Numbered from the stretch's first letter, positions 1-12,177 are shown. The stretch: 38,348 bases of DNA from Eubacteriales bacterium (GCA_028680875.1 JAQUJQ010000002.1:1-38348), one strand, 5' to 3'. Made by a program: numbers and translations. The notes: generated by a model not told the origin, from the letters alone.

Positions 1-556
1 TTTCTATGCGCAGCATTTTATCCTCATGGCGAGTCGTAACGGCTTTGAGTCCTCTTTCTCCGTTATAGGCAAGTATCTCTCCTTCATATATCGAAGGGAT
101 CAATAAAGGATGCCCTTTTTTTCCGTGATAGCAGGGCACTATAAATGATTCCGGGTGCTTTTTATGCTCTTGAACAATCCGGTTTATAATCTTTGCAGGG
201 ACAAGGGGGCAATCAACCGGAAGCAGCAGATATGCGGACAAGGGTACTGATGGTTTGGCCATGGCAGCCCTTATACCGGTTTTTACCGATTCGTACATCC
301 CTTCGCAAAAATCTTTATTATAGGCTTCCTCTATCCCTTTTTCTTTCAGGATAGGTTTCAACAATTCTCTTTTATATCCCGTTACAGCTAAAATTTGATT
401 TACTCCCGCCTCTCTGAAAGCATCAGCAATCCTACCTATTGCGGGCACATCTCCCACCTTAAGCAGGGGCTTAAAATCTCCCATTCGAGAAGAATATCCG
501 GCGGAAAGGATCAAAGCACATACAGTAATATCCTGCCTCAGCTTATCGTTCACCAT
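1..556 (-). CDS. MobA-like NTP transferase (partial, 3' end outside window)
   Basis: The reading frame is open from an ATG at 556 to the window edge, giving about 185 residues. The N-terminal signature LSAGYSSRMGDFKPL (residues 17-31) is the nucleotide-binding loop of MobA/MocA-type nucleotidyltransferases, and LLPVDCPLVP (111-120) is the metal-binding acidic strand. Family members join CTP or GTP to molybdopterin, so a role in making the dinucleotide form of the molybdenum cofactor fits the aldehyde oxidoreductase at the head of this operon; the nucleotide used cannot be told from sequence. The start overlaps the xdhC stop by 14 bp, so the two are probably translationally coupled. From memory it corresponds to the DVU_1551 family. 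The family call is firm; the substrate is inferred. Confidence 0.85.
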   Translation of the reverse strand, partial: MVNDKLRQDITVCALILSAGYSSRMGDFKPLLKVGDVPAIGRIADAFREAGVNQILAVTGYKRELLKPILKEKGIEEAYNKDFCEGMYESVKTGIRAAMAKPSVPLSAYLLLPVDCPLVPAKIINRIVQEHKKHPESFIVPCYHGKKGHPLLIPSIYEGEILAYNGERGLKAVTTRHEDKMLRIE

Positions 557-1370
557 GACCTGCCCTTACTTTTATCATCTCAGCCGCAACACTTACGGCG
601 ATTTCTTCAGGAGTCTCGGCGAAAATAGGCAATCCGATAGGAGAATACACTTTGTCTAATTCCTCCTGCGAAAAACCGTCCTCTATTAACCGTTTCTTAG
701 TGTCGGCAACCTTGTTTCTGCTGCCGATCATCCCTATATACGCCACCTTCCTCCTAAGAGACTGCTTCAGCACGGTATAATCGTAGCTGTGGCCTCTTGT
801 CATAATAACTATATAACTATTTTCATCGGTTTTTATGTCCTCATAGGCGTCTTCAAAGCTTTCGATCACTCTAACCCGGTCTGCCTCCGGAAACCGCTCG
901 CTGCTGGCATATTCCGCCCTGTCATCGATCACAGTCGTTGAAAAGCCGATAAACCGTAAAACCGGTTCAAGAGCCTGTCCCACATGACCTGCACCGAAGA
1001 TAAGTACAGTGCTTTTTACACCAAATTCTTCGATAAATGTTTCCGTCTTTGCTGCGTCCACATATTCAACAAAGACATCTGCGTCTCCGCCGCATCGCAT
1101 ATCTAATCCTTGCTGGTCCTCCGGCTTCAGTCTGAACCGATACAGTTTCGATTGTCTGGTTTTAAATGTCTCCAGAGCAATCCGTTCCACTTCGGCTTCA
1201 AGCTTCCCTCCGCCTACGGTACCGTATCTTGTTCCGTTTCCCCGCATAAGAAGACAGGCACCTTTTTTTCTGGGAGTTGAACCATTTGTATCTACCACCT
1301 TTGCTATAACAAAGCTTTCCCCTGTGTCAATCAGGTCCTTTCCGATCTTCAGAATATTATTCTTACTCAT
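543..1370 (-). CDS. XdhC/CoxI-family molybdoenzyme maturation factor
   Basis: 275 residues from the ATG at 1370, which I prefer because AAGGAGG lies upstream and the start then follows the stop of the previous gene (1388) without overlap; an upstream non-ATG start would add 26 unlikely residues. The N-terminal XdhC/CoxI domain shows GTVGGGKLE (residues 50-58) and MRCGGDADV (91-99). The C-terminal Rossmann domain begins with LIFGAGHVGQ (123-132). Known XdhC proteins bind molybdenum cofactor, assist its sulfuration and insert it into xanthine dehydrogenase-family enzymes in the cytoplasm. Here the obvious client is the Mop-type aldehyde oxidoreductase of the same operon. Family assignment is secure; the client is inferred from position. 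Confidence 0.9.
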   Translation of the reverse strand: MSKNNILKIGKDLIDTGESFVIAKVVDTNGSTPRKKGACLLMRGNGTRYGTVGGGKLEAEVERIALETFKTRQSKLYRFRLKPEDQQGLDMRCGGDADVFVEYVDAAKTETFIEEFGVKSTVLIFGAGHVGQALEPVLRFIGFSTTVIDDRAEYASSERFPEADRVRVIESFEDAYEDIKTDENSYIVIMTRGHSYDYTVLKQSLRRKVAYIGMIGSRNKVADTKKRLIEDGFSQEELDKVYSPIGLPIFAETPEEIAVSVAAEMIKVRAGHGER

Positions 1371-1387
1371 AGCTATTTTCTTCCTCC

Positions 1388-2425
1388 TTATTTCACCCAT
1401 CTGGGGAATACCTTGTTTAATCTTTTTAACACACTGCCGCAAGGACATTGTTCAATTATCCACTTAGAAAGATCACCGGTCCGGTATCGAATAAGGGGCA
1501 TTCCTTTCCTAGTCAAGGTAGTAAACACGATCTCACCGCATTCACCCTCCGGTACGACTATCCCGGTCCCGGGATCGATTATTTCAAAGTACAGATCGTT
1601 TTCTCTCGGGTGGTAGCCGACCAGTGTTTCACAGCTTACTGCACCTCCAAGCCCCATTTCAGTCATTCCATAATGTTCGAATACTTTACATCCCCATATT
1701 TCCTCCAGCTCTCTTGCTGTTTCATCGGAAATATAATCGGTACTGAGTAATACGGTCTTAATGCCGGGAAAGCCCGGAGCGTTGCCATGTAACTCCTTCC
1801 AGAATTTTGCGAGACAGACAGCTTCCTGTGGGCTCCCCACAAACGAAGTGATGCTTTCTGTTTCTATGATCTTACAGAGTCTGTTTAAAACTTCTGTGTC
1901 GGTAATATCGGGTAATCCAAAGGGAACCGATCTACAGCCCAGCCGTTTTAAACCGGTATTCAGTAAATCTCCCACCGACCCGGGCCGTTGACAGGGCAGC
2001 AAAATCAGGACTGTATCATTCTCATCGACTAGATTTTTCATACCATGGTGAAAATAATCTATGGTCAATTCCTGGTCTTCTCTTGTGAAGTAAACTCTTT
2101 TACTTTCTCCGGTAGAGCCTGAAGTGTTCAGGGTTACAATACGGCTTATATGATTCGCCGGAACACAAAGCATTGACTTACCGTGTTCCGATAATTCTTT
2201 TGCTGTAGTAAAAGGTAAATTTTCTATTTCATTTATATTTTTTAATTGCTGACCTTTAAAATTCTTTAGCTTATTATTATAAAATCTACTATTTTTGATC
2301 GCATGGGATATTGTTTCATTTAGTTTCTTAAGCTGGAACTGTTCAAGTCTTTCTCTGGTTAAATCCATACAGTCTATAGCATCGATCTTCTCTTTTATCC
2401 AATTGTCCAAAAATAGTCCGCTCAT
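1388..2425 (-). CDS. Short AMP-dependent (PaaK-like) ligase, DVU_1553-like
   Basis: 345 residues from the ATG at 2425, whose ATGA overlaps the stop of the radical SAM gene; GGGAG precedes it. Adenylate-forming motifs are clear: TSGSTGESK (residues 101-109), HYGMTEMG (251-258) and YRTGD (314-318). It is most like phenylacetate-CoA ligases but much shorter than their usual 430 or so residues, and it stops soon after a CPCGS motif (327-331), so most of the mobile C-terminal lid domain is missing. Such a protein could adenylate a carboxylate without completing normal thioester formation, or hand the acyl-adenylate to a partner. The acid it activates is unknown. Its place between xdhC and a radical SAM enzyme suggests a biosynthetic step tied to the molybdoenzyme rather than catabolism. 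Confidence 0.85.
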   Translation of the reverse strand: MSGLFLDNWIKEKIDAIDCMDLTRERLEQFQLKKLNETISHAIKNSRFYNNKLKNFKGQQLKNINEIENLPFTTAKELSEHGKSMLCVPANHISRIVTLNTSGSTGESKRVYFTREDQELTIDYFHHGMKNLVDENDTVLILLPCQRPGSVGDLLNTGLKRLGCRSVPFGLPDITDTEVLNRLCKIIETESITSFVGSPQEAVCLAKFWKELHGNAPGFPGIKTVLLSTDYISDETARELEEIWGCKVFEHYGMTEMGLGGAVSCETLVGYHPRENDLYFEIIDPGTGIVVPEGECGEIVFTTLTRKGMPLIRYRTGDLSKWIIEQCPCGSVLKRLNKVFPRWVK

Positions 2426-3771
2426 TGATTTTTCTCCCGATGAATGATGTTGTAAGCACAAAACGGAATCAACCTTTTGTCTCTTGTCGCTACATGTACT
2501 CTGCATCTTTCCAATCGCTTCAGATCAAGGTTCCAGGCATCCTGGAATGCCATTGCAGTAATGCTGAAACTGTTGGATTTCAGATTCTGAATATAATCAT
2601 CCCATTCAGAGAAATTATATTCCGTGCTTTCTGCAAGCGGTTTTTTATAGGCCTGCCAGGACCACTTCCGTGCTATATAGTTCCTGGCCCGGATGATGGA
2701 GGTGTCCTTTGAACAAAGACAGGATCTCTTTGATTGATCTGACAGAGAGGTTAAACTTTTATCCGGCCCAACTATAAAATTGCCGTGAAAGGAACACAGA
2801 GGATGGCCCGTCATCAATGGCACAAAGGCTTCCTTTTTGACTTTCCCACCGGTTTGCAGTTCAATGTTCCGAATCAGTTTAGGGATCGTAATCCTGTCAT
2901 CATCCCCCGGCATCTCGGGCATACCGGGAAATCTGCCGAAATAACTTACCGGCTGAAAGTGAATCCCCCGTAGATAAGGTGTTTTTTTTATTGCAAACTC
3001 GATAATCTCCCCTATATGATCTTCGTTTACTTTAGGCACTACAGTAACAACCAAAACTGTTCCAAGCTGTTCGCAGATGCAATGTTCTATTGCCTTTATC
3101 TTTTTATCAAGGAGCCTTTCCCCTCTTGTCTTTAGATAAATATCATCCTTAAGACCGTCAAATTGAAGGAACACAGAGGAAAGCCCGGCCTGCTTCAGAG
3201 TTCTTACATACTCTCTGCTATCTGCCAGCTTCCTGCCGTTTGTATTCAATTGTATGTAGGGGAAGCCCATCTCCCTTCCCATCGCAATGATTTCCGGCAA
3301 ATCTTTTCGTATCGTAGGTTCCCCGCCGGACAATTGGATATTGAATGGGCGATCCGGGCTTTGTTCCAACAGGAATTCATAAATCTCTTTGATCTCTTCT
3401 ATGGTTAATTCTTGACTTTCACAATAGGTTCTGTCAGATATATTCTGATGGGAACTCTGTGCATTTGCAAAGCAAAAAGAGCAATGCTGATTGCACCGAT
3501 TTGTCAATTCGATAAGCACACAACAAGCCTCTTGTTTATGATTTTCACACAAACCGCAGTCATAGGGACAGCCCTCTACAGTTTCTGTCTTTACTCCTTG
3601 AGGCTTGACATTATCAGGTGTAAGGTTCCAATCTTTATAGGATGGTTCTCCTTCCCAAACTAATGTCTTAAATATACCATGCTCTGGGCAGATCTTTCGA
3701 TCATATATTTTATCGCCTTCCTGATATCGTTCTACAGGTACCCTTTTTTTACAAATGGGACATATACTCAT
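2422..3771 (-). CDS. Radical SAM protein with extra cysteine motifs (TrsS/DVU_1554-like)
   Basis: 449 residues. In order: a zinc-ribbon-like start with C4, C7 and C28; a CPYDCGLC motif (68-75) followed by a Cys pair at 83-84; the radical SAM cluster motif CX3CX2C (C93, C97, C100); and SGGEP (148-152) for SAM binding. The CPxDCGLC block just before the radical SAM motif is shared with the MJ0619 pterin methylase and archaeal tetraether lipid synthase group, enzymes that need several Fe-S clusters. That makes it a candidate for C-methylation or C-C bond formation on a cofactor or lipid. Some relatives are, as I recall, selenoproteins named TrsS; this copy uses cysteine and its frame has no internal TGA. 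The start is 1 bp after the upstream stop. The substrate is unknown. Confidence 0.87.
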   Translation of the reverse strand: MSICPICKKRVPVERYQEGDKIYDRKICPEHGIFKTLVWEGEPSYKDWNLTPDNVKPQGVKTETVEGCPYDCGLCENHKQEACCVLIELTNRCNQHCSFCFANAQSSHQNISDRTYCESQELTIEEIKEIYEFLLEQSPDRPFNIQLSGGEPTIRKDLPEIIAMGREMGFPYIQLNTNGRKLADSREYVRTLKQAGLSSVFLQFDGLKDDIYLKTRGERLLDKKIKAIEHCICEQLGTVLVVTVVPKVNEDHIGEIIEFAIKKTPYLRGIHFQPVSYFGRFPGMPEMPGDDDRITIPKLIRNIELQTGGKVKKEAFVPLMTGHPLCSFHGNFIVGPDKSLTSLSDQSKRSCLCSKDTSIIRARNYIARKWSWQAYKKPLAESTEYNFSEWDDYIQNLKSNSFSITAMAFQDAWNLDLKRLERCRVHVATRDKRLIPFCAYNIIHREKNQ

Positions 3772-3772
3772 T

Positions 3773-4168
3773 TTATTTCTCCCGGCGAAACTCTATATCG
3801 TAAGATTCAAACATATCCACCAGCTTTAAATATGTTCCTTCCACGATTTCTTTGCAAAGTACAGCCTTATTCAAAGGATTTCCTTCAAGCAGAATATCGC
3901 ATTCCGTATTTCCAAAAAGCTCCTCAAACCAATCATGCAATTCGTCACACATAGTATCTGCCTGTCTCTTGTCAGCCAAATACAACAAACAGAAGGAGGC
4001 TGACAATGTTCCGCAAGTCTTGCCCCGATGCATACCGTCGCATAAACCTGCCATAGCATCAACTAAATCGATATTCTCTTTACCCAATCCCTCAAGGCCC
4101 ATCTGCATGATCATTTGGCTGCAGCAATAGCCCTTAAACTTTAATTCCATAATCCGAAAGATATCCAT
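3773..4168 (-). CDS. C-GCAxxG-C-C-type cysteine-rich protein (DVU_1555-like)
   Basis: 131 residues with eight cysteines (15, 16, 43, 52, 60, 74, 90, 105). The pattern CCSQ near the start, then GLCDGMHRGKTCGTL (41-55) and a following FC, is a divergent version of the C-GCAxxG-C-C family, small redox-active proteins thought to bind an Fe-S cluster or form disulfides. There is no signal peptide or membrane segment, so it should be cytoplasmic. It ends 1 bp before the radical SAM start and begins 11 bp after the methyltransferase stop, so it is likely made in step with both. A role as electron donor or cluster partner for the radical SAM protein is inference only. Confidence 0.78.
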   Translation of the reverse strand: MDIFRIMELKFKGYCCSQMIMQMGLEGLGKENIDLVDAMAGLCDGMHRGKTCGTLSASFCLLYLADKRQADTMCDELHDWFEELFGNTECDILLEGNPLNKAVLCKEIVEGTYLKLVDMFESYDIEFRREK

Positions 4169-4179
4169 AAATATCCTCC

Positions 4180-4896
4180 TTAAGGTTTTTCCGCTATAAG
4201 GAGAAAATAGCCCGGTTTTTTCTGTTTAATCATCTCTGCAAAATGCAAGGCATCTTTCTCTTCTTTTAATACCGACTGATAAAAATTCTCCATCGATCCA
4301 TAATGCATGATCATTGAAGCCATAAAGCTTTTAAGTTCAGCTGTCTTGTCCTCCCATAATATGATACGAAAGCCAAGCTCCGAAAGTAAATCATTGAGCT
4401 CACTTAAAACGAAAGCTCCGCTAATACAAGTTTTTACCTGCCCGTTATCACCTTCAACATTCTTATTTGCATCCCGCAGATAAAAATCACTTATGATAAG
4501 CTTTCCGCCTTTTTTTAAGACACAATAGGCTTCATGCAAAGCCTCTGTTTTGTTTTCAAATAATGATAAAGAGCATTCCATAAAGACTCCGTCAAATGAA
4601 AAAGAAGGAAATTCAAGCAGCTCTCCATCACCGTATACGATATTCAATTTTGGATTTCTGTCTTTTCCCCTTTTCAACAAAACCTTTGATGAATCAATTC
4701 CTACGGCACTTATATCGAAATTTGTTTCCAAAAATTCCACGGTAGCACCGCAGCCGCAACCTACATCTAAAAGCCTTGCCTTTTTCCCAAACTGACAAAT
4801 CTCCATAGCATGTGCGGTAACAGCAAAGCCTCCGGGTCTTATAGCATTTTCAAACACTTCACTAAAAACAGGGGCTTCAAATACTTTACAGGTCAT
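4180..4896 (-). CDS. Class I SAM-dependent methyltransferase (DVU_1556-like)
   Basis: 238 residues with a standard class I fold signature: LLDVGCGCG (residues 42-50) is the glycine-rich SAM-binding loop, followed by AVGIDSS and the acidic GDGELLEF region. It resembles UbiE/ArsM-type small-molecule methyltransferases, but nothing in the sequence fixes the acceptor. The N-terminus contains several residues conserved in this operon context (VFSEVF, RPGG), which may form the acceptor site. It is sandwiched between two cysteine-rich genes, 4 bp after the double-CxxC protein and 11 bp before the C-GCAxxG-C-C protein. The cassette thus holds two SAM-using enzymes, one radical and one polar, which suggests building of a decorated small molecule. 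Confidence 0.85.
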   Translation of the reverse strand: MTCKVFEAPVFSEVFENAIRPGGFAVTAHAMEICQFGKKARLLDVGCGCGATVEFLETNFDISAVGIDSSKVLLKRGKDRNPKLNIVYGDGELLEFPSFSFDGVFMECSLSLFENKTEALHEAYCVLKKGGKLIISDFYLRDANKNVEGDNGQVKTCISGAFVLSELNDLLSELGFRIILWEDKTAELKSFMASMIMHYGSMENFYQSVLKEEKDALHFAEMIKQKKPGYFLLIAEKP

Positions 4897-5123: not shown

Positions 5124-7403
5124 TTAAAGCCTATATTTACGATGAGCGTTTTCTTCAATTTTCTTATTTATTTCAAGCCTGTGACTATATGCTTTATAGA
5201 TTGTATACACATCCCCTTCGATACTGTATTCAACCCAATAAGTAATCACTCCGGGCTGAAACTTGGCGGTATAATGGTTGTTATTGGGGTTCCATATCTT
5301 GCTGCCTGTATCTTCAGCATGGTAAATCACCTTTTTAATGTCCGAAACCAATATCAGTCTGTCATCCATTATGCGCTCGATCTCATCTGTAAGCTTTATA
5401 TTAATATCTTCATAGGGCTCTTTTTCCCGTTCCATTTCCTCACCCCATATCTCCTTCAATAGTTTCCTTTTAAGCATAATCCTGTTTTCATGCCTTTTGC
5501 TATATGAAATTATATATTTATGATCCCGCTCTCCGCTTTTATAGGGCTCATCATAGATTAAATCGAGGATATGCCTGCTCGATTTTGCCTCTTTAGTAAA
5601 CCTTTCTTTACACATCGCACAATATACCACAAAATCCTTGTCGCTTTCCATCGCCCTTGTATCGGTCATTTCCTTGGCCAAAGAGGTATTTGTAAACGAA
5701 ACCAAACCACCGAAGCTGCAACATTTTGTCATATCTCTGCTGTATTTCATTTCCTCGATCCGGTATCCCTTCTTTTTCAAAAGACTACGGACCGCTTTAT
5801 GAACATTGGGATCATGTCTCGCTGTACACGCATCGTGTACAGTAATGACAGGATGAGTATTTGCGATGGGCCCCTGAATTTCGGCCCCACACGAATCGTA
5901 TATTTCCCAAAGAGACTCAATTTGAATTCCCTCGATCTGCTCTGAAAACATCTTGGTACATGTGGCACAAGCAGTTATAACAATTGGTTTGCCTGCTTTT
6001 TCCCAATTATCTTTCACCTCTTCGGATGTCTGGTTAAATAAATCAACCCTTCCCGACCAAGCCGCCGGCGCACCACAGCACCCCAGATATAAACCTACAC
6101 CACCCCTTAAATTCTCAGTTAAAAACTGATAGGCTTTCAGCACATGGGTAGGTGCCAAGGCGCCCAGTTGGCATCCGGGGAAAAAGATATACTTGCTTTC
6201 TTCCATACCTACCTGATGACGTAACAGTTTAAAATAGTTACTGTTAGCGAATAACATATCATTGACGGGAAAATCATGGATTGCTTCCGGCATATGATTT
6301 TTTTCAGCTAAACCGACCTTGCCCGACATGCATACATCAGCCATATTTAGTCCATTAGGACAGATTTCTCCGCAAAGGCCACATAAGGTACAGGAGTTTA
6401 CCATATTTTTGCTTTTACGGATTCCCATCATAATATTTACATTGTTGGCAATCTCTCTGACATATTTTTTGGGATAGCTGCCTTCAGTTTCTAAGAACTT
6501 GCATTGCTTGACACATTCCATACACTCACATTGAATGCATCTTTCAGCTTCCTTTATTGCTTCTGCTTCGGTGAGACCATCCAACAACCTGGGAGTGACG
6601 GTAGTGGCACGAGGCTCAATTTGACCAATATTTACATACAATTCTGTCTTGTATGCAACTTCATTTTCTCTTCCTTCTGTCAGCGATACACCCTTTATCT
6701 GTCTGTCCAAGGAGATGGCCGAAGAACGGCCGTCACAAATTTTCTGTATAATACTGTCTTCACCGTAACCTGATTCAATAAGTAAATCTTTTGATCTGGA
6801 ATCATAAATACCGTCAAATATTTCTCCCAACTGTTCTTCTATGTCAGTAATCTGACAGTTGCATCTTAGTTGAATATCTGTGTCATCCAGTAATTTGAAA
6901 TCAGCATCCATCAGCTCCTCTGATAATAATCCGTCCTTTACCCTGCTTCGGATTCTGCCTCCCAATTTACCTTCTTTTTCAAATACTGTAACCTGATACC
7001 CTTTTTCATATAAAAACAATGCAGCAGTCAGTCCGGAAAGACCGCCCCCTACAATAGCTATTTTCTTATTTGTTTTTTTAATCGGTTTAATCTTTTTCTT
7101 CTTTAGTTCCCCAAATTCAATACATGCTCTTTCTAACTTAGAAATCAGGATAGAACCGCCTATTTCCTCTCTTTTACATACCAATTGACAGGGATGATCA
7201 CAAATCCTGCTTACGATTCTCGGGAAAGGGATATTTTTTTGAAAACAATTTACTGCACCTGTAAAATCATCTTTTTCTATATATCGGATCATGGTCTTTA
7301 CATCAACATGCATCGGACATGATGTAATACAAGCCGGGGCATAATTCTGTGTACATTTATCCTCATACTCCCTGATTTCAGGCCTCTTCATTTTTACCAC
7401 CAT
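5124..7403 (-). CDS. Multidomain FAD/two-[4Fe-4S]/CCG-domain oxidoreductase (DVU_1558-like)
   Basis: 759 residues. Domains: a GltD-type N-terminal Fe-S domain with ACITSCPMHVD (C25, C29) and CDHPCQLVC (68-76); an FAD-binding Rossmann start IAIVGGGLSGL (115-125) with EKEGKLGGR; two ferredoxin-like motifs CIQCECMECVKQC (289-301) and CTLCGLCGEICP (338-349); two CCG (HdrB/GlpC-like) half-domains with PGCQLGA, LGCCGAP, CATC, CCSFGG and CAMC (409-598); then a tail of about 135 residues without recognised motifs. The flavin region is short for a complete NAD(P)H oxidoreductase, because the stretch before the ferredoxins lacks a clear second Rossmann fold. It most likely passes electrons to or from the aldehyde oxidoreductase upstream. 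An ATG at 7391 with GGTGG upstream is an alternative start. Confidence 0.88.
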   Translation of the reverse strand: MVVKMKRPEIREYEDKCTQNYAPACITSCPMHVDVKTMIRYIEKDDFTGAVNCFQKNIPFPRIVSRICDHPCQLVCKREEIGGSILISKLERACIEFGELKKKKIKPIKKTNKKIAIVGGGLSGLTAALFLYEKGYQVTVFEKEGKLGGRIRSRVKDGLLSEELMDADFKLLDDTDIQLRCNCQITDIEEQLGEIFDGIYDSRSKDLLIESGYGEDSIIQKICDGRSSAISLDRQIKGVSLTEGRENEVAYKTELYVNIGQIEPRATTVTPRLLDGLTEAEAIKEAERCIQCECMECVKQCKFLETEGSYPKKYVREIANNVNIMMGIRKSKNMVNSCTLCGLCGEICPNGLNMADVCMSGKVGLAEKNHMPEAIHDFPVNDMLFANSNYFKLLRHQVGMEESKYIFFPGCQLGALAPTHVLKAYQFLTENLRGGVGLYLGCCGAPAAWSGRVDLFNQTSEEVKDNWEKAGKPIVITACATCTKMFSEQIEGIQIESLWEIYDSCGAEIQGPIANTHPVITVHDACTARHDPNVHKAVRSLLKKKGYRIEEMKYSRDMTKCCSFGGLVSFTNTSLAKEMTDTRAMESDKDFVVYCAMCKERFTKEAKSSRHILDLIYDEPYKSGERDHKYIISYSKRHENRIMLKRKLLKEIWGEEMEREKEPYEDINIKLTDEIERIMDDRLILVSDIKKVIYHAEDTGSKIWNPNNNHYTAKFQPGVITYWVEYSIEGDVYTIYKAYSHRLEINKKIEENAHRKYRL

Positions 7404-7503: not shown

Positions 7504-10251
7504 TTACTTTTTCAATTCCGCCAATATTTTTTCCGGAAGAGCCGGCAACTCCCTGATTCTGACATTGCAGGCATCATAAATTGCATTGATGATCGAGGCA
7601 TGAGGTGAACTCAATGGCAGTTCACCAACACCGGAAGCACCAAAAGGCCCATGCTCTCTGGGATTTTCAAAATAAATAACCTCCATTTCATCAGGAGCAT
7701 CCTTTATAGTAGGAATCCCGCATCCGGCTAAGCTGGTATGCTTTTTCAAATCCTCATACTGTTCAGTCAAGGCAAAACCCACACCCTGAACCAGGCCGCC
7801 GTACATCTGTCCATCTACAGTTGATTTGTTTATTATCTTTCCACAGTCTGTAACCAATGTCATTTTATTGACAGTTACCTTACCCGTATTTATATTGACG
7901 CAAAGTTCAGTCATAATAAACCCGTACATGTACATCAACATGGGAATGCCCTGTGCAGTTTCCTGATCGATCATTTGACAGAATTGCCCGGATGCAAAGC
8001 TACCCACATATCTCAAATCAATATTTTCTACAACCATTTCCTCATAAGTACGGTAACTGCCGTCTTCCTTTTTCATTGCACTTATCAGCTTTTCACAAGC
8101 ATCCTTCATCGCATTCCCAAAGAATACCTGCCCTCTGCTTCCTGCGGAAACTCCGCCGTCAGGACAAATTTTAGTGTCGTTCATAATCATCTTTATCTTA
8201 TTAATGGGAACATTTAAGGGTTTTAAAGCCTCATGGGCAATAGTAAGGGTGCCCAGATCGGAACCCTGGCCATGATCCTGCCAGCAATTGTATATAGCGA
8301 CTCCGCCGTCGGGCAACAGTTCTGCCCAAGCTTCCGAGAAATCCGCAAAATCTCCGCCCACACAATAATTAGCTAAAGATAAACCAACACCATATTTTTT
8401 ATCAGCAGTCTCTTTCTTTTTTGCCTCTTTTTTTGCCTGCTCATAATGAGGTTTAAGATAATCCATCATTTCTTCCAGCGAGAATACCTCAGGAGTGTCT
8501 CCCACAGGACTTGTGGCTCCGGGTCTGTAAATATTTTTGTATCGCAGGTCAAATGGATCCATTCCCATTTTAACAGCCAGCTCATCTATCAGACATTCAC
8601 TTGGAAACAAAGCCTGAGGAGATCCGTAAGAACGAAATGCTGTCCCATATGTATGGTTTGTGCAAACTGCATGGGTTTCGCCTCTGATATTTTTAATATC
8701 ATAACCTGCTCCTACAAACATATTTCCTTTAAAAGCAAGGCAATCGCCCCATTCGGAATAGGCGCCGTGGTCAAAGATCAAATCATATTCCATACCGAGA
8801 ATCTTTCCGTCTTTATCTGCTGCCATTTTGATATCAGAATAAGATGACGCCCTTTTCCCGGTATATGTAATAGTCTGATGCATATCAAATTCCAAATAAC
8901 ACGGCTTTCCGGTAGCCATTACAGCTACTCCGATCAACGCTTCGTTGGTAGGGCTTAGTTTATATCCGAAAGTTGCACCTGTGTTATTTTGTATGATCCT
9001 GAATTTTTCTTCCGGAATCCCCAGCGCTTCCTGAAGCATGGCAATATGCACATACAGACAAATACTCTTTGACTGAATAGTTAGCATATCATTTTCATCA
9101 AAGTATCCGAAACCTACATCCGGTTCTAAAATCAAATGAGGTTGTCTTGTAGTGTAGTAGCTGGCTTCCGTAGTATAAGCCGCTTCTTTGAAAATCGCAG
9201 CAGTATCTTCACCTTTTATTGTCTTTTGGTCGAAGTAAACATTTGGCGTTCCCGGATGAATCTCGATTGCATCATCTGCCATAGCCTCCAAAGCATTCAT
9301 GTATGCAGGAAGCTCTTCGATATCTACGATAACCGCATCCGCTGCAGCTTCAGCGTGCTCTTTTGTATCCGCACAAACGATTGCAATTGCATCACCGTAC
9401 ATAAAGATTTTTTCATCACAGAGGATAGGTCTGTCAAAACCATCTCCCTTATTCCATGGGAATAGAGCCATTCCATTGATTCGATTCGTTCCCTTAATAT
9501 CTTTATGAGTCAGCACCGCTTCAACACCCGGCATCTTTTCTGCAACAGATGTGTCAATGCTCTTGATATTTGCATGAGAGACTTTGGCCTGAACCAGAGC
9601 CATCTGTAAAGTATCTTTAGGCATTTTCAGCCCCACATCCGCTCCGAAATCATGGGTCCCCACCACTTTATCAACAGCATTGGGGCGAGGGGCATAGCTT
9701 CCTAAAATTCCTTTCTTTTCGTCATAGTCAAACTCCAAATCTTTTATAGTCCATTCTTTGCGTATTACTTTGGCAGCATCCATAACTGCGTCCACGATAG
9801 GTTTATATCCGGTACATCTACAAACATTTCTATGTTTTTGGAACCAATCCCTGATTTCCTCTCTTGTAGGATTCTGATTTTCATCTAATAAAGCTTTCCC
9901 CGATACGATAAATCCCGGTGAGCAGAACCCGCATTGTGCTGCGCCATGTTTTATCATAGCAGCCTGAAGGGGATGCAGGTTATCTCTTGTACCAATCCCT
10001 TCTATAGTTGTTATTTGAGCATTATCAGGCACACGACTCATCTTTGTAATACAAGAACGTACTACTTTACCGTTGACTATAACAGAGCAAATACCACACT
10101 GACCCGTTTTACATCCTACTTTGGTACCCAAGAGTCCTAGTTGCTCACGGATTACTGTAGAGAGCATTTGATTTGGTTCAACTATAACCCTGGTCTTGAC
10201 ACCATTAACTATAAGATCTTTTTTTCTTAACTTTCTCACGTTATCAGACAT
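7504..10251 (-). CDS. mop: Molybdopterin-dependent aldehyde oxidoreductase, Mop type
   Basis: 915 residues, about the length of Desulfovibrio gigas Mop (907), and very similar to it as I recall that sequence. The N-terminal plant-type [2Fe-2S] domain has C47, C52, C55 and C67; the helical [2Fe-2S] domain has C107, C110, C144 and C146 (QCGFC, CRCTGYK). The rest is the molybdenum cofactor domain, with the active-site glutamate at 877 in FGASGVGELPL. There is no FAD domain, so electrons must leave to a separate carrier. It oxidises aldehydes to carboxylic acids at a Mo-hydroxylase centre in the cytoplasm. AAGGAGGG precedes the ATG. It is the first gene after a Moco-type riboswitch. Substrate range is unknown, and W instead of Mo cannot be excluded. 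Confidence 0.95.
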   Translation of the reverse strand: MSDNVRKLRKKDLIVNGVKTRVIVEPNQMLSTVIREQLGLLGTKVGCKTGQCGICSVIVNGKVVRSCITKMSRVPDNAQITTIEGIGTRDNLHPLQAAMIKHGAAQCGFCSPGFIVSGKALLDENQNPTREEIRDWFQKHRNVCRCTGYKPIVDAVMDAAKVIRKEWTIKDLEFDYDEKKGILGSYAPRPNAVDKVVGTHDFGADVGLKMPKDTLQMALVQAKVSHANIKSIDTSVAEKMPGVEAVLTHKDIKGTNRINGMALFPWNKGDGFDRPILCDEKIFMYGDAIAIVCADTKEHAEAAADAVIVDIEELPAYMNALEAMADDAIEIHPGTPNVYFDQKTIKGEDTAAIFKEAAYTTEASYYTTRQPHLILEPDVGFGYFDENDMLTIQSKSICLYVHIAMLQEALGIPEEKFRIIQNNTGATFGYKLSPTNEALIGVAVMATGKPCYLEFDMHQTITYTGKRASSYSDIKMAADKDGKILGMEYDLIFDHGAYSEWGDCLAFKGNMFVGAGYDIKNIRGETHAVCTNHTYGTAFRSYGSPQALFPSECLIDELAVKMGMDPFDLRYKNIYRPGATSPVGDTPEVFSLEEMMDYLKPHYEQAKKEAKKKETADKKYGVGLSLANYCVGGDFADFSEAWAELLPDGGVAIYNCWQDHGQGSDLGTLTIAHEALKPLNVPINKIKMIMNDTKICPDGGVSAGSRGQVFFGNAMKDACEKLISAMKKEDGSYRTYEEMVVENIDLRYVGSFASGQFCQMIDQETAQGIPMLMYMYGFIMTELCVNINTGKVTVNKMTLVTDCGKIINKSTVDGQMYGGLVQGVGFALTEQYEDLKKHTSLAGCGIPTIKDAPDEMEVIYFENPREHGPFGASGVGELPLSSPHASIINAIYDACNVRIRELPALPEKILAELKK

Positions 10252-10616: not shown

Positions 10617-11315
10617 TTATAGTGTCCAGGCAAGATAGAACATAAAAAATGCTAAGAGTAAAATTGCCGATCCTATCAATAGCTTTATTCCTTTTATTAT
10701 CCTCATATAACGTAAATCCTCAGTAAGTTTTTGAATCAGTCCGGCCGAAGTACCTGCAATAATAACTAGGATACTATGGCCCAGAGCATATAACAACAGG
10801 AGCATAATCCCCCAAAGAGGACTTCCGCTTTCTGCAACAATTGCCAGCAAAACTACAAGAACCGGCAATGCACAATGAGATGCAAAGAGCCCCCCGAGCA
10901 TACCTGCAAGGAAGGCACCCACATATCCTTTTTTTGAATTCTTTGAATGGTTGAAAGCCGGTGGAATGAAATTATGGATCTCAAAAGCTTGAATCGCCAT
11001 AAGTACCATCAAAATACCGAGCATAACATACCACCATGGCCCCAGGTGGTGTAAAAGCTTTCCGACAAGAGAAGCAAATACTCCAAGTATAGTATAAGTA
11101 ATTGCCATCCCTAAAGCAAAAACTAAAGATAAACGAAAAGCCCTTTTCCCATCTTTGTTTCCGGTGCCACCAACATAACCTATGATAATGGGAACACTCG
11201 AAAGTGAACAAGGGGTAACAGAGGTTAAAGCCCCTGCCAGGATTGCAAGCATAGGAGCAAACCAAATATTGTGCTCCAATAAGGCCGAGAGGGCTTCAAT
11301 CCCGTGATCAATCAT
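10617..11315 (-). CDS. CcdA/DsbD-family membrane thiol-redox transporter
   Basis: 232 residues from ATG 11315, chosen over a TTG at 11336 because GAGG lies 8 bp upstream. About six hydrophobic segments; the paired-cysteine signatures are TPCSLSSVP (C36) in the first repeat and SHCALPVLV (C148) in the second, the positions of the redox cysteines in CcdA and DsbD-beta. CcdA proteins carry reducing equivalents from cytoplasmic thioredoxin to the outside face for cytochrome c maturation, spore-coat or other thiol pathways. No thioredoxin-like partner or cytochrome gene is next to it. It starts 28 bp after the racemase stop and ends before the mop promoter, so it belongs to the racemase transcript, not the mop operon. 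The partner is unknown. Confidence 0.87.
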   Translation of the reverse strand: MIDHGIEALSALLEHNIWFAPMLAILAGALTSVTPCSLSSVPIIIGYVGGTGNKDGKRAFRLSLVFALGMAITYTILGVFASLVGKLLHHLGPWWYVMLGILMVLMAIQAFEIHNFIPPAFNHSKNSKKGYVGAFLAGMLGGLFASHCALPVLVVLLAIVAESGSPLWGIMLLLLYALGHSILVIIAGTSAGLIQKLTEDLRYMRIIKGIKLLIGSAILLLAFFMFYLAWTL

Positions 11316-11343
11316 ATTTATCGCCTCGATTTCCAAAATGGAT

Positions 11344-12177
11344 TTAATCTATATAAATGGTGCCGGCAGCTGTAATATCAATGTCGCCGGCCAGTTTAGC
11401 AGCAATGATACCGCCATTCCAATCAATACTTGCAAATAACTCTCCTCCCGGTTGATGAATTTGCATATTTTTGATGGTTCTTCCCTCCCTTTGAGCAAGG
11501 GCAGATACCAGAGCTACCGTTCCGGATCCGCAGCTCTTCTCCCAGGTCAAAGAACCTACCGCTCTTACATAAACCACCGGTGTCATTTGTGATGTAGCAC
11601 TGTTATAAAATAGTATGCCAAAACAATCCGTATCCAGTTGTTCCTTTTTTAAAAAATCCTTTACAATATGAACATAGGCATCTGCCGCAGTTTTGTTCCA
11701 GAGAATCACATGAAGGATACCCTCATAGACTACAATGCTATAATCACCCAATTGATCATTTCTGCCATGATAGATATCTGAAGGAAGCGGCATTTCGATT
11801 GCAACGTTGCATCTATAGCCGGGCTGTTGATTTTGCACTACGGCGGTTAAGATTCCCCTGTAACCGGACATTTCTATAATTACTTCCTTTTTGTCCCCCT
11901 CAAAATTATGAATTTTTCCACTCTCCATTCCGCCCATGGCAATCCAGGCGGCAAGGCTTCTGGATGCATTGCCACAAAATTCTCCGCCCATCATCTGGAG
12001 ACGGGCTAAAGCTTTGGGGTGTTCCGCCTTTTCCAGAAAACCTACCTGCTCGGCGCAAAGATAAGTATCAGTCATAATTTTAGCGGCGATATCCGAGTAT
12101 CTTTTTCTGGGTAAAGGGTCTATAATCAGTATGGTTGTATTCCCACTGGGATTATACTTTACAAATTTGAGTTCCAT
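11344..12177 (-). CDS. CntK-like histidine racemase family protein (DapF fold)
   Basis: 277 residues with the two-cysteine active site of the DapF fold: GGEFCGNA (C68) and WEKSCGSGT (C216). It differs from true diaminopimelate epimerase at the N-terminus: KYNPSGNTTILI replaces the GNDF motif. It agrees closely with my recollection of staphylococcal CntK (KYNPSGN, EQVGF, EFCGNA, WENSCGSGT, HQPGG), which makes D-histidine for the metallophore staphylopine. The other staphylopine enzymes (CntL aminobutanoyl transferase, CntM dehydrogenase) and the Cnt importer are not visible here. So the substrate may be histidine or another amino acid. The neighbouring divergent gene is a metal cation exporter. 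AAGGAA precedes the ATG. Confidence 0.8.
   Translation of the reverse strand: MELKFVKYNPSGNTTILIIDPLPRKRYSDIAAKIMTDTYLCAEQVGFLEKAEHPKALARLQMMGGEFCGNASRSLAAWIAMGGMESGKIHNFEGDKKEVIIEMSGYRGILTAVVQNQQPGYRCNVAIEMPLPSDIYHGRNDQLGDYSIVVYEGILHVILWNKTAADAYVHIVKDFLKKEQLDTDCFGILFYNSATSQMTPVVYVRAVGSLTWEKSCGSGTVALVSALAQREGRTIKNMQIHQPGGELFASIDWNGGIIAAKLAGDIDITAAGTIYID

Follow-up and report, generated by a model that had tools for sequence, protein, structure and literature searches.

A gene in the 38,348-nucleotide stretch of DNA analysed here (the window) encodes TrsS, a radical SAM protein that, as judged from alignments and a predicted fold, is kin to the tetraether synthase Tes and retains its metal ligands, including the labile methionine. 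By the same comparisons it belongs to a separate clade devoid of the Tes tyrosine and is encoded in a conserved cassette with the molybdopterin-dependent aldehyde oxidoreductase Mop. We propose, with a probability of roughly 45%, that the radical chemistry of TrsS is directed at an unactivated carbon in a small organic molecule that serves the Mop system in most hosts, and that this molecule is something other than a mature cofactor with a C-methylated pterin.

trsS and its gene cassette

The coordinates of the trsS open reading frame given in the earlier note proved right; the gene lies on the minus strand, which had been left unstated, and the plus strand is interrupted by stops (Table 1). 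The protein matched the NCBIfam model NF045646 (TrsS) over residues 2-446 with 559.1 bits (E 5e-168), passing the curated equivalog cut-off of 490, and Pfam PF04055 with an E value of 1.5e-24. The second-best NCBIfam model was NF045702 (Tes), at 367 bits under its cut-off of 450. By these profile matches the gene is trsS, a member of a named family and not of a new one. TrsS is listed as a radical SAM (seleno)protein in a 2026 selenoprotein review (PMC13188914), in which the family group is credited to Haft and Tolstoy (2025, mSystems); we found no account of its function in the accessible literature. While some members of the family contain selenocysteine, the window protein has only cysteine, which does not speak against its membership, as selenocysteine is optional in the family. 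No in-frame selenocysteine TGA was present in TrsS at the 80 loci surveyed below, and a selenoprotein reading was rejected, as the TGA flagged in one genome (G606) is a normal stop. A plasmid origin was not indicated either: 77 plasmid records matched, every one at less than 60% identity.

The genes run on one strand in the order Mop, dicluster protein, DVU_1557, methyltransferase, C-GCAxxG-C-C protein, TrsS, ligase, XdhC and MocA-like transferase. Their overlap or close spacing and common strand suggest that they probably form one operon. The link to molybdopterin drawn earlier is borne out, with the molybdopterin enzyme Mop encoded in the trsS cassette. Just upstream of the cassette (10617-12177), a distant histidine racemase-like protein (159 bits, cut-off 400) is encoded beside a DsbD-like membrane protein. 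In the window's genome (86.6% complete) a MoaA-type protein was found and a MoeA N-terminal domain was not. At another locus (L083, 5618-7390) the DVU_1551-type NTP transferase is fused to an alpha-ribazole-phosphatase-like domain, and separate phosphatase-like genes are found in many cassettes.

Table 1. Features of the trsS cassette and of TrsS; positions refer to the window, except in the last row, where they refer to the loci named.
Feature	Position	Strand	Basis
TrsS, radical SAM protein, 449 aa (stop included)	2422..3771	-	NCBIfam NF045646, 559 bits, cut-off 490
Rubredoxin-type site C4, C7, C28, H31 (Tes C9, C12, C33, H36), predicted	3679..3762	-	81/81 TrsS; PF23545; ligands from PMC9433317
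N-terminal auxiliary [4Fe-4S] site C68, C72, C75, H78 (Tes C73, C77, C80, H83), predicted	3538..3570	-	81/81 TrsS; Tes structure
Cys83, invariant in TrsS, Ile in M. jannaschii Tes	3523..3525	-	Alignments
Radical SAM cluster motif C93-x3-C97-x2-C100	3472..3495	-	Motif, PF04055, alignment
FQPVSYFGR loop (Tes Gln268/Ser271/Arg275)	2932..2958	-	Q and R in 81/81, S in 77/81 TrsS
Predicted C-terminal auxiliary cluster ligands C326, M407, C423, C438 (Tes C338, M439, C455, C470) and TrsS-only Cys region 351-353	2458..2796	-	79/79 and 78/78 where aligned
Mop, molybdopterin-dependent aldehyde oxidoreductase	7504..10251	-	NF045668, 1510 bits, cut-off 1100; 1DGJ 1181 bits, 1SIJ 1161 bits
Pyridine nucleotide-disulfide oxidoreductase / dicluster / CCG protein	5124..7403	-	NF045663, 897 bits
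DVU_1557 family small redox protein, 68 aa	4901..5107	-	NF045645, 91 bits, cut-off 60
DVU_1556 family class I methyltransferase	4180..4896	-	NF045667, 222 bits, cut-off 155
DVU_1555 family C-GCAxxG-C-C protein	3773..4168	-	NF045669, 107 bits, cut-off 103
DVU_1553 family PaaK/F390-synthetase-like adenylate-forming ligase	1388..2506	-	NF045666, 441 bits; best PDB match 4R1L (PaaK)
XdhC family maturation factor of aldehyde oxidoreductase	543..1448	-	NF045664, 326 bits, just under cut-off 350; TIGR02964 over cut-off
DVU_1551 family NTP (MocA-like) transferase, cut by contig edge	2..556	-	NF045665, 175 bits, partial protein
TrsS subclade loci beside CobW-type GTPase	L025 8213-20375; L024 9914-12139; L085 593-3088		

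Distribution of TrsS and its link with Mop

A scan of one genome per species gave at least 551 stretches with a relative, and the best 80 loci were surveyed. These best 80 span Bacillota, Chloroflexota, Thermodesulfobacteriota, Campylobacterota, Pseudomonadota and other phyla. Of the loci, 47 had adequate flanking sequence; 44 of these carry the ligase, 44 the dicluster protein, 40 the C-GCAxxG protein, 39 Mop, 38 the methyltransferase and 33 XdhC. Among 150 genomes drawn from the window's phylum, TrsS scored above the cut-off in ten, counting the window's own genome, and Mop is present in every one of them. The association is also visible in 297 genomes of Desulfovibrionales, where TrsS was detected in 178 of the 192 with Mop vs. 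5 of the 105 without it (Fisher P about 1e-56, uncorrected for relatedness); six weak matches were excluded from this count as probably Tes-like, and five of them were later placed with Tes in the tree. Fourteen genomes of this order appeared to be Mop-positive and TrsS-negative, which is partly a detection artefact: the three examined with full flanks do carry a cassette TrsS, and in two more the sequence stops at a contig edge.

The cassette is also present in Desulfovibrio gigas. One genome (G247) encodes the crystallised D. gigas Mop with 100% identity; its TrsS gene follows Mop in the same orientation at a distance of about 4.3 kb, and the DNA between them holds the cassette in its usual order.

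Kinship with tetraether synthase and predicted metal sites

The earlier note had assigned the protein to the group of MJ0619 and Tes, and this assignment holds by sequence, fold and retained metal ligands. The top PDB sequence match was 7TOL/7TOM, MJ0619 itself (E 6e-89), and identity with M. jannaschii Tes was 37% over the whole length. Structure prediction against MJ0619, which had been proposed as a check, was performed with AlphaFold on a 62-sequence alignment (pLDDT 87.3, pTM 0.90). Comparison of the model by Foldseek again gave 7TOM/7TOL as the top match (E 7.6e-42, TM 0.80/0.79), followed after Tes by MoaA at a TM of only 0.44. Thus, a placement far from MJ0619 and Tes was not observed; Tes is the top PDB match by both sequence and fold.

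Besides a rubredoxin iron, the solved structure of MJ0619 contains three [4Fe-4S] clusters; the metal sites comprise the ligands C9/C12/C33/H36, C73/C77/C80 plus a histidine, the CX3CX2C motif, and a C-cluster with a labile Met439 (PMC9433317). In TrsS, the CPYDCGLC block (C68-P-Y-D-C72-G-L-C75) was confirmed 25-18 residues ahead of the CxxxCxxC motif C93/C97/C100, and its cysteines align with the Tes N-cluster ligands C73/C77/C80 and H83, as expected of a cluster site. The Cys83-84 pair and a cysteine-bearing C-terminal part (C326, C351, C353, C423, C438) are also present in the translated protein, as had been described. Residues C68, C72, C75, H78, C83, C93, C97, C100, C326, C423 and C438 were invariant in the 62-sequence alignment, while C84 showed no conservation in the aligned homologues. 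An N-terminal rubredoxin-type site (C4/C7/C28/H31), missed by the earlier note, was invariant in the same alignment.

By alignment, all ligands of the four Tes metal sites are therefore present in TrsS, and in the set of 81 TrsS proteins they are retained in 78-81 of the aligned sequences. This ligand conservation predicts one rubredoxin-type iron and three [4Fe-4S] clusters. We infer the three cysteine ligands of the Tes C-cluster from conservation, whereas Met439 itself is taken from the published structure (PMC9433317). The loop residues Gln268/Ser271/Arg275, which in Tes bind 5'-dA and close the active site (PMC9433317), are conserved as well (Table 1). The comparison of the 81 TrsS included bacterial Tes as a positive control and, as a negative control, a clostridial clade that has lost ligands. 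This Tes-like clade (L240-L243) has the radical SAM and N-terminal sites without the C-cluster ligands, which indicates that the pattern of ligand retention is not automatic. A further cysteine pair at positions 351-352 is found in most TrsS and is absent from Tes and the other clades tabulated; the window protein has C351 and C353.

Proposed reaction of TrsS

Given the conserved SAM loop and methionine ligand, a Tes-like capture mechanism is plausible by analogy. Reductive cleavage of SAM would yield a 5'-dA radical, which would abstract hydrogen from a small organic substrate at a carbon that is not activated. As in Tes, the C-terminal auxiliary cluster with its methionine ligand would capture the resulting carbon radical, and a C-C or C-S bond would then form, possibly with the TrsS-specific Cys83 and Cys351 region. 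The PaaK-like ligase (by adenylation) and the DVU_1556 methyltransferase would then process the same molecule, and in most hosts the product would be used by the Mop aldehyde oxidoreductase system, be it as an organic cofactor, a carrier or a dedicated substrate. The recurrence of the methyltransferase and the ligase in the gene neighbourhood suggests such a small molecule common to all three enzymes. On the other hand, 9 of the 47 well-flanked loci are without a local DVU_1556 methyltransferase, which counts against this reading. An analogy with arsenic chemistry was also considered, prompted by the ArsM-like character of the methyltransferase and its invariant cysteine.

TrsS and its relatives outside the Mop cassette

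Mop is not an obligatory client of TrsS, given a subclade that adjoins CobW and Mop-less genomes that keep trsS; the latter are mostly metagenome assemblies, in which absence is weak evidence. Two Chloroflexota genomes encode TrsS, the methyltransferase, the ligase and a dicluster-type protein, with MoaA and MoeA present, and no xanthine-oxidase-family protein was found in these two assemblies (MAGs, so that the absence is weak). A further genome (G341) has two tandem TrsS-type genes, a ligase and DUF5714, with none of the three molybdenum markers found. At locus L233 (5641-11349), tandem TrsS-type genes, the second without CPxDCGLC, are followed by a ligase and a DUF5714 protein and preceded by a gene resembling 2-hydroxyacyl-CoA dehydratase; near a Mop-less TrsS cassette (L082) there is a similar dehydratase pair.

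On plasmids of Haloarcula, Salinirubellus and Mycolicibacterium (L229 6887-9165, L232 6968-9171 and L230 6950-9318), a distant TrsS-like gene precedes one for a methyltransferase that fits DVU_1556 best among the families, with a score under the cut-off. The haloarchaeal plasmid proteins are without the CPxDCGLC cysteines, and no molybdoenzyme was seen near these aerobic pairs. Such pairs suggest that the radical enzyme and the methyltransferase can act as a unit where Mop is missing. A second bacterial clade of Tes/TrsS-like proteins was found in three genomes of the window's phylum (L016/L218, L020/L219, L017/L220), each time encoded immediately upstream of a PhsA/FdhA-like molybdoenzyme of the DMSO reductase family; one of these clusters also contains MoeA and MobA-type genes of Moco biosynthesis.

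These observations bear on whether TrsS and its partners act in Mop maturation, by modifying the Mop polypeptide or by helping to install the sulfido ligand or a transient form of the cofactor. The near-complete co-occurrence with Mop in Desulfovibrionales, the co-localisation with XdhC and the MocA-like transferase, and the position of the second clade beside a molybdoenzyme in 3/3 genomes all favour such a role. Yet the description of the D. gigas enzyme holds no modification (PMC10223205), TrsS persists together with the methyltransferase and the ligase in two Chloroflexota MAGs in which no xanthine-oxidase-family protein was found, and the aerobic pairs have no molybdoenzyme nearby, and we consider a maturation role rather doubtful.

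The subclade that adjoins CobW (L024/L025/L085, support 99/99; Table 1) raises the idea of metal handling, with TrsS making or handling an organic ligand for uptake or trafficking of Mo, W or another metal. Its C. ragsdalei copy neighbours genes for a CobW-type GTPase, for molybdate uptake (ModA) and for an ABC transporter, along with a ModD-like QRPTase, FmdE, a methyltransferase and a FecCD permease. The TrsS of Desulfosporosinus carries a C-terminal DUF5714 fusion related to the metal-binding selenoprotein MbdU, in line with the DUF5714 gene close to TrsS at L233. As such arrangements are confined to few genomes, and most TrsS loci are without uptake genes, a general role of this kind seems unlikely.

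Distinction of TrsS from Tes

Both phylogenetic trees placed TrsS as a monophyletic group apart from Tes, with clade support of 96/94 in one and 100/99 in the second, in which M. jannaschii Tes grouped with Desulfovibrionales Tes at 100/99; the window protein clusters with those of loci L038 and L021. Tyr459, strictly conserved in archaeal GDGT-MAS (PMC9433317), is replaced by V, I, T or E in 77 of the 78 aligned TrsS (Val427 in the window), whereas all six Tes have tyrosine. The segment from the first C-cluster cysteine (C326) to the methionine ligand (M407) has a median length of 83 residues in TrsS vs. 101-113 in Tes. On NF045702 the bacterial Tes controls reached 483 and 538 bits. A tetraether synthase identity was accordingly rejected for TrsS, which fails the cut-off (367 vs. 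450 bits), the Tyr459 test and the clade test. Tes proteins were seen in five Desulfovibrionales genomes (L235-L239), of which the two scanned pass the Tes cut-off; all five proteins keep the Tes metal ligands, and there was no Mop match in these genomes. A scan of viral contigs for additional Tes sequences found none.

A broader lipid- or fatty-acyl-coupling activity, like that of Tes or bacterial Mss, would agree with the 37% identity and common fold and with the presence nearby of a ligase of the acyl-adenylating type and of an aldehyde oxidoreductase. Set against the score below the Tes cut-off, the replaced tyrosine, the shorter segment before the methionine and a clade separate from Tes of the same bacterial order, this activity appears quite improbable. 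The kinship may still affect lipid-biomarker surveys, in which Tes/Mss homologues were accepted at E 1e-30 with >30% identity (PMC13274423) or E 1e-50 with >20% (PMC8941075). With TrsS 37% identical to M. jannaschii Tes, loose BLAST cut-offs could count it as a tetraether-type lipid enzyme, bearing in mind that the surveys used other query sequences.

Pterin methylation and the D. gigas enzyme

The earlier note had raised C-methylation of molybdopterin, with MJ0619 as a methanopterin methylase for precedent. Membership of the MJ0619/Tes group and the connection to a molybdopterin enzyme stand; the precedent and the proposed reaction do not. The precedent is outdated: MJ0619 is a tetraether synthase (Tes / GDGT-MAS; PDB 7TOL, 7TOM), and the authors of its structure could not corroborate the pterin-methylase role (PMC9433317). 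Two crystallised enzymes (1DGJ, 1SIJ) are very similar to the window Mop, so that the pterin idea can be tested directly. The native D. gigas enzyme at 1.28 A is described with MCD and well-defined pterin rings in a review by the leader of that work (PMC10223205), and, going by this description, a mature cofactor with a C-methyl group should not have escaped notice. Since the D. gigas Mop combines a full cassette, trsS included, with a cofactor described as ordinary, methylation of its pterin by TrsS is unlikely, and with a class I methyltransferase of the cassette's own, methylation need not be the task of TrsS. Despite the Moco-linked cassette with its MocA-like transferase and XdhC, and the former proposal for MJ0619 (quoted in PMC9433317), we regard C-methylation by TrsS of the pterin of the molybdenum cofactor or of a precursor as extremely unlikely.

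Implications and comparison with known systems

Our preferred reading remains radical chemistry on a small molecule that serves Mop in most hosts. Taken further, the bacterial branches of the Tes superfamily might constitute a molybdoenzyme-linked group, in which C-C or C-S bonds are made by radical chemistry on a Met-ligated auxiliary cluster to build a small molecule (an organic cofactor or metal ligand). A dedicated methyltransferase and an adenylating ligase would then process it, and Mop-type enzymes, the subject of 40 years of research, would depend on it. We put this wider proposal forward tentatively, as a possible if doubtful extension. TrsS occurs together with a molybdenum enzyme whose structure was among the first to be solved, in D. 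gigas itself among others. The Mop clusters thus include a radical SAM reaction for which the crystal structures offer no explanation and whose target is probably an unactivated carbon. The link with D. gigas makes the question of the TrsS substrate testable.

The D. gigas locus (PDB 1SIJ, 1VLB) has the same gene order as the window from Mop to XdhC; it differs in a MoeA-like gene directly upstream of Mop, where none was seen in the window. Within the TrsS family the window protein is a full-length match, and the models for DVU_1551, 1553, 1555, 1556, 1557 and Mop all match in the window. With MoaA (PDB 1TV7, 2FB2), TrsS has the radical SAM core in common, while the Tes-type N- and C-terminal cluster domains are absent from MoaA. 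With Tes it shares the fold, the Gln, Ser and Arg of the SAM loop, the rubredoxin site, the N-cluster with three cysteines and one histidine, the radical SAM cluster, and the C-cluster cysteines with the labile methionine. In contrast to Tes, TrsS has no equivalent of Tyr459 and no lipid-gene context, and it is marked by a private cysteine region at 351-353 and a shorter segment ahead of the methionine ligand.
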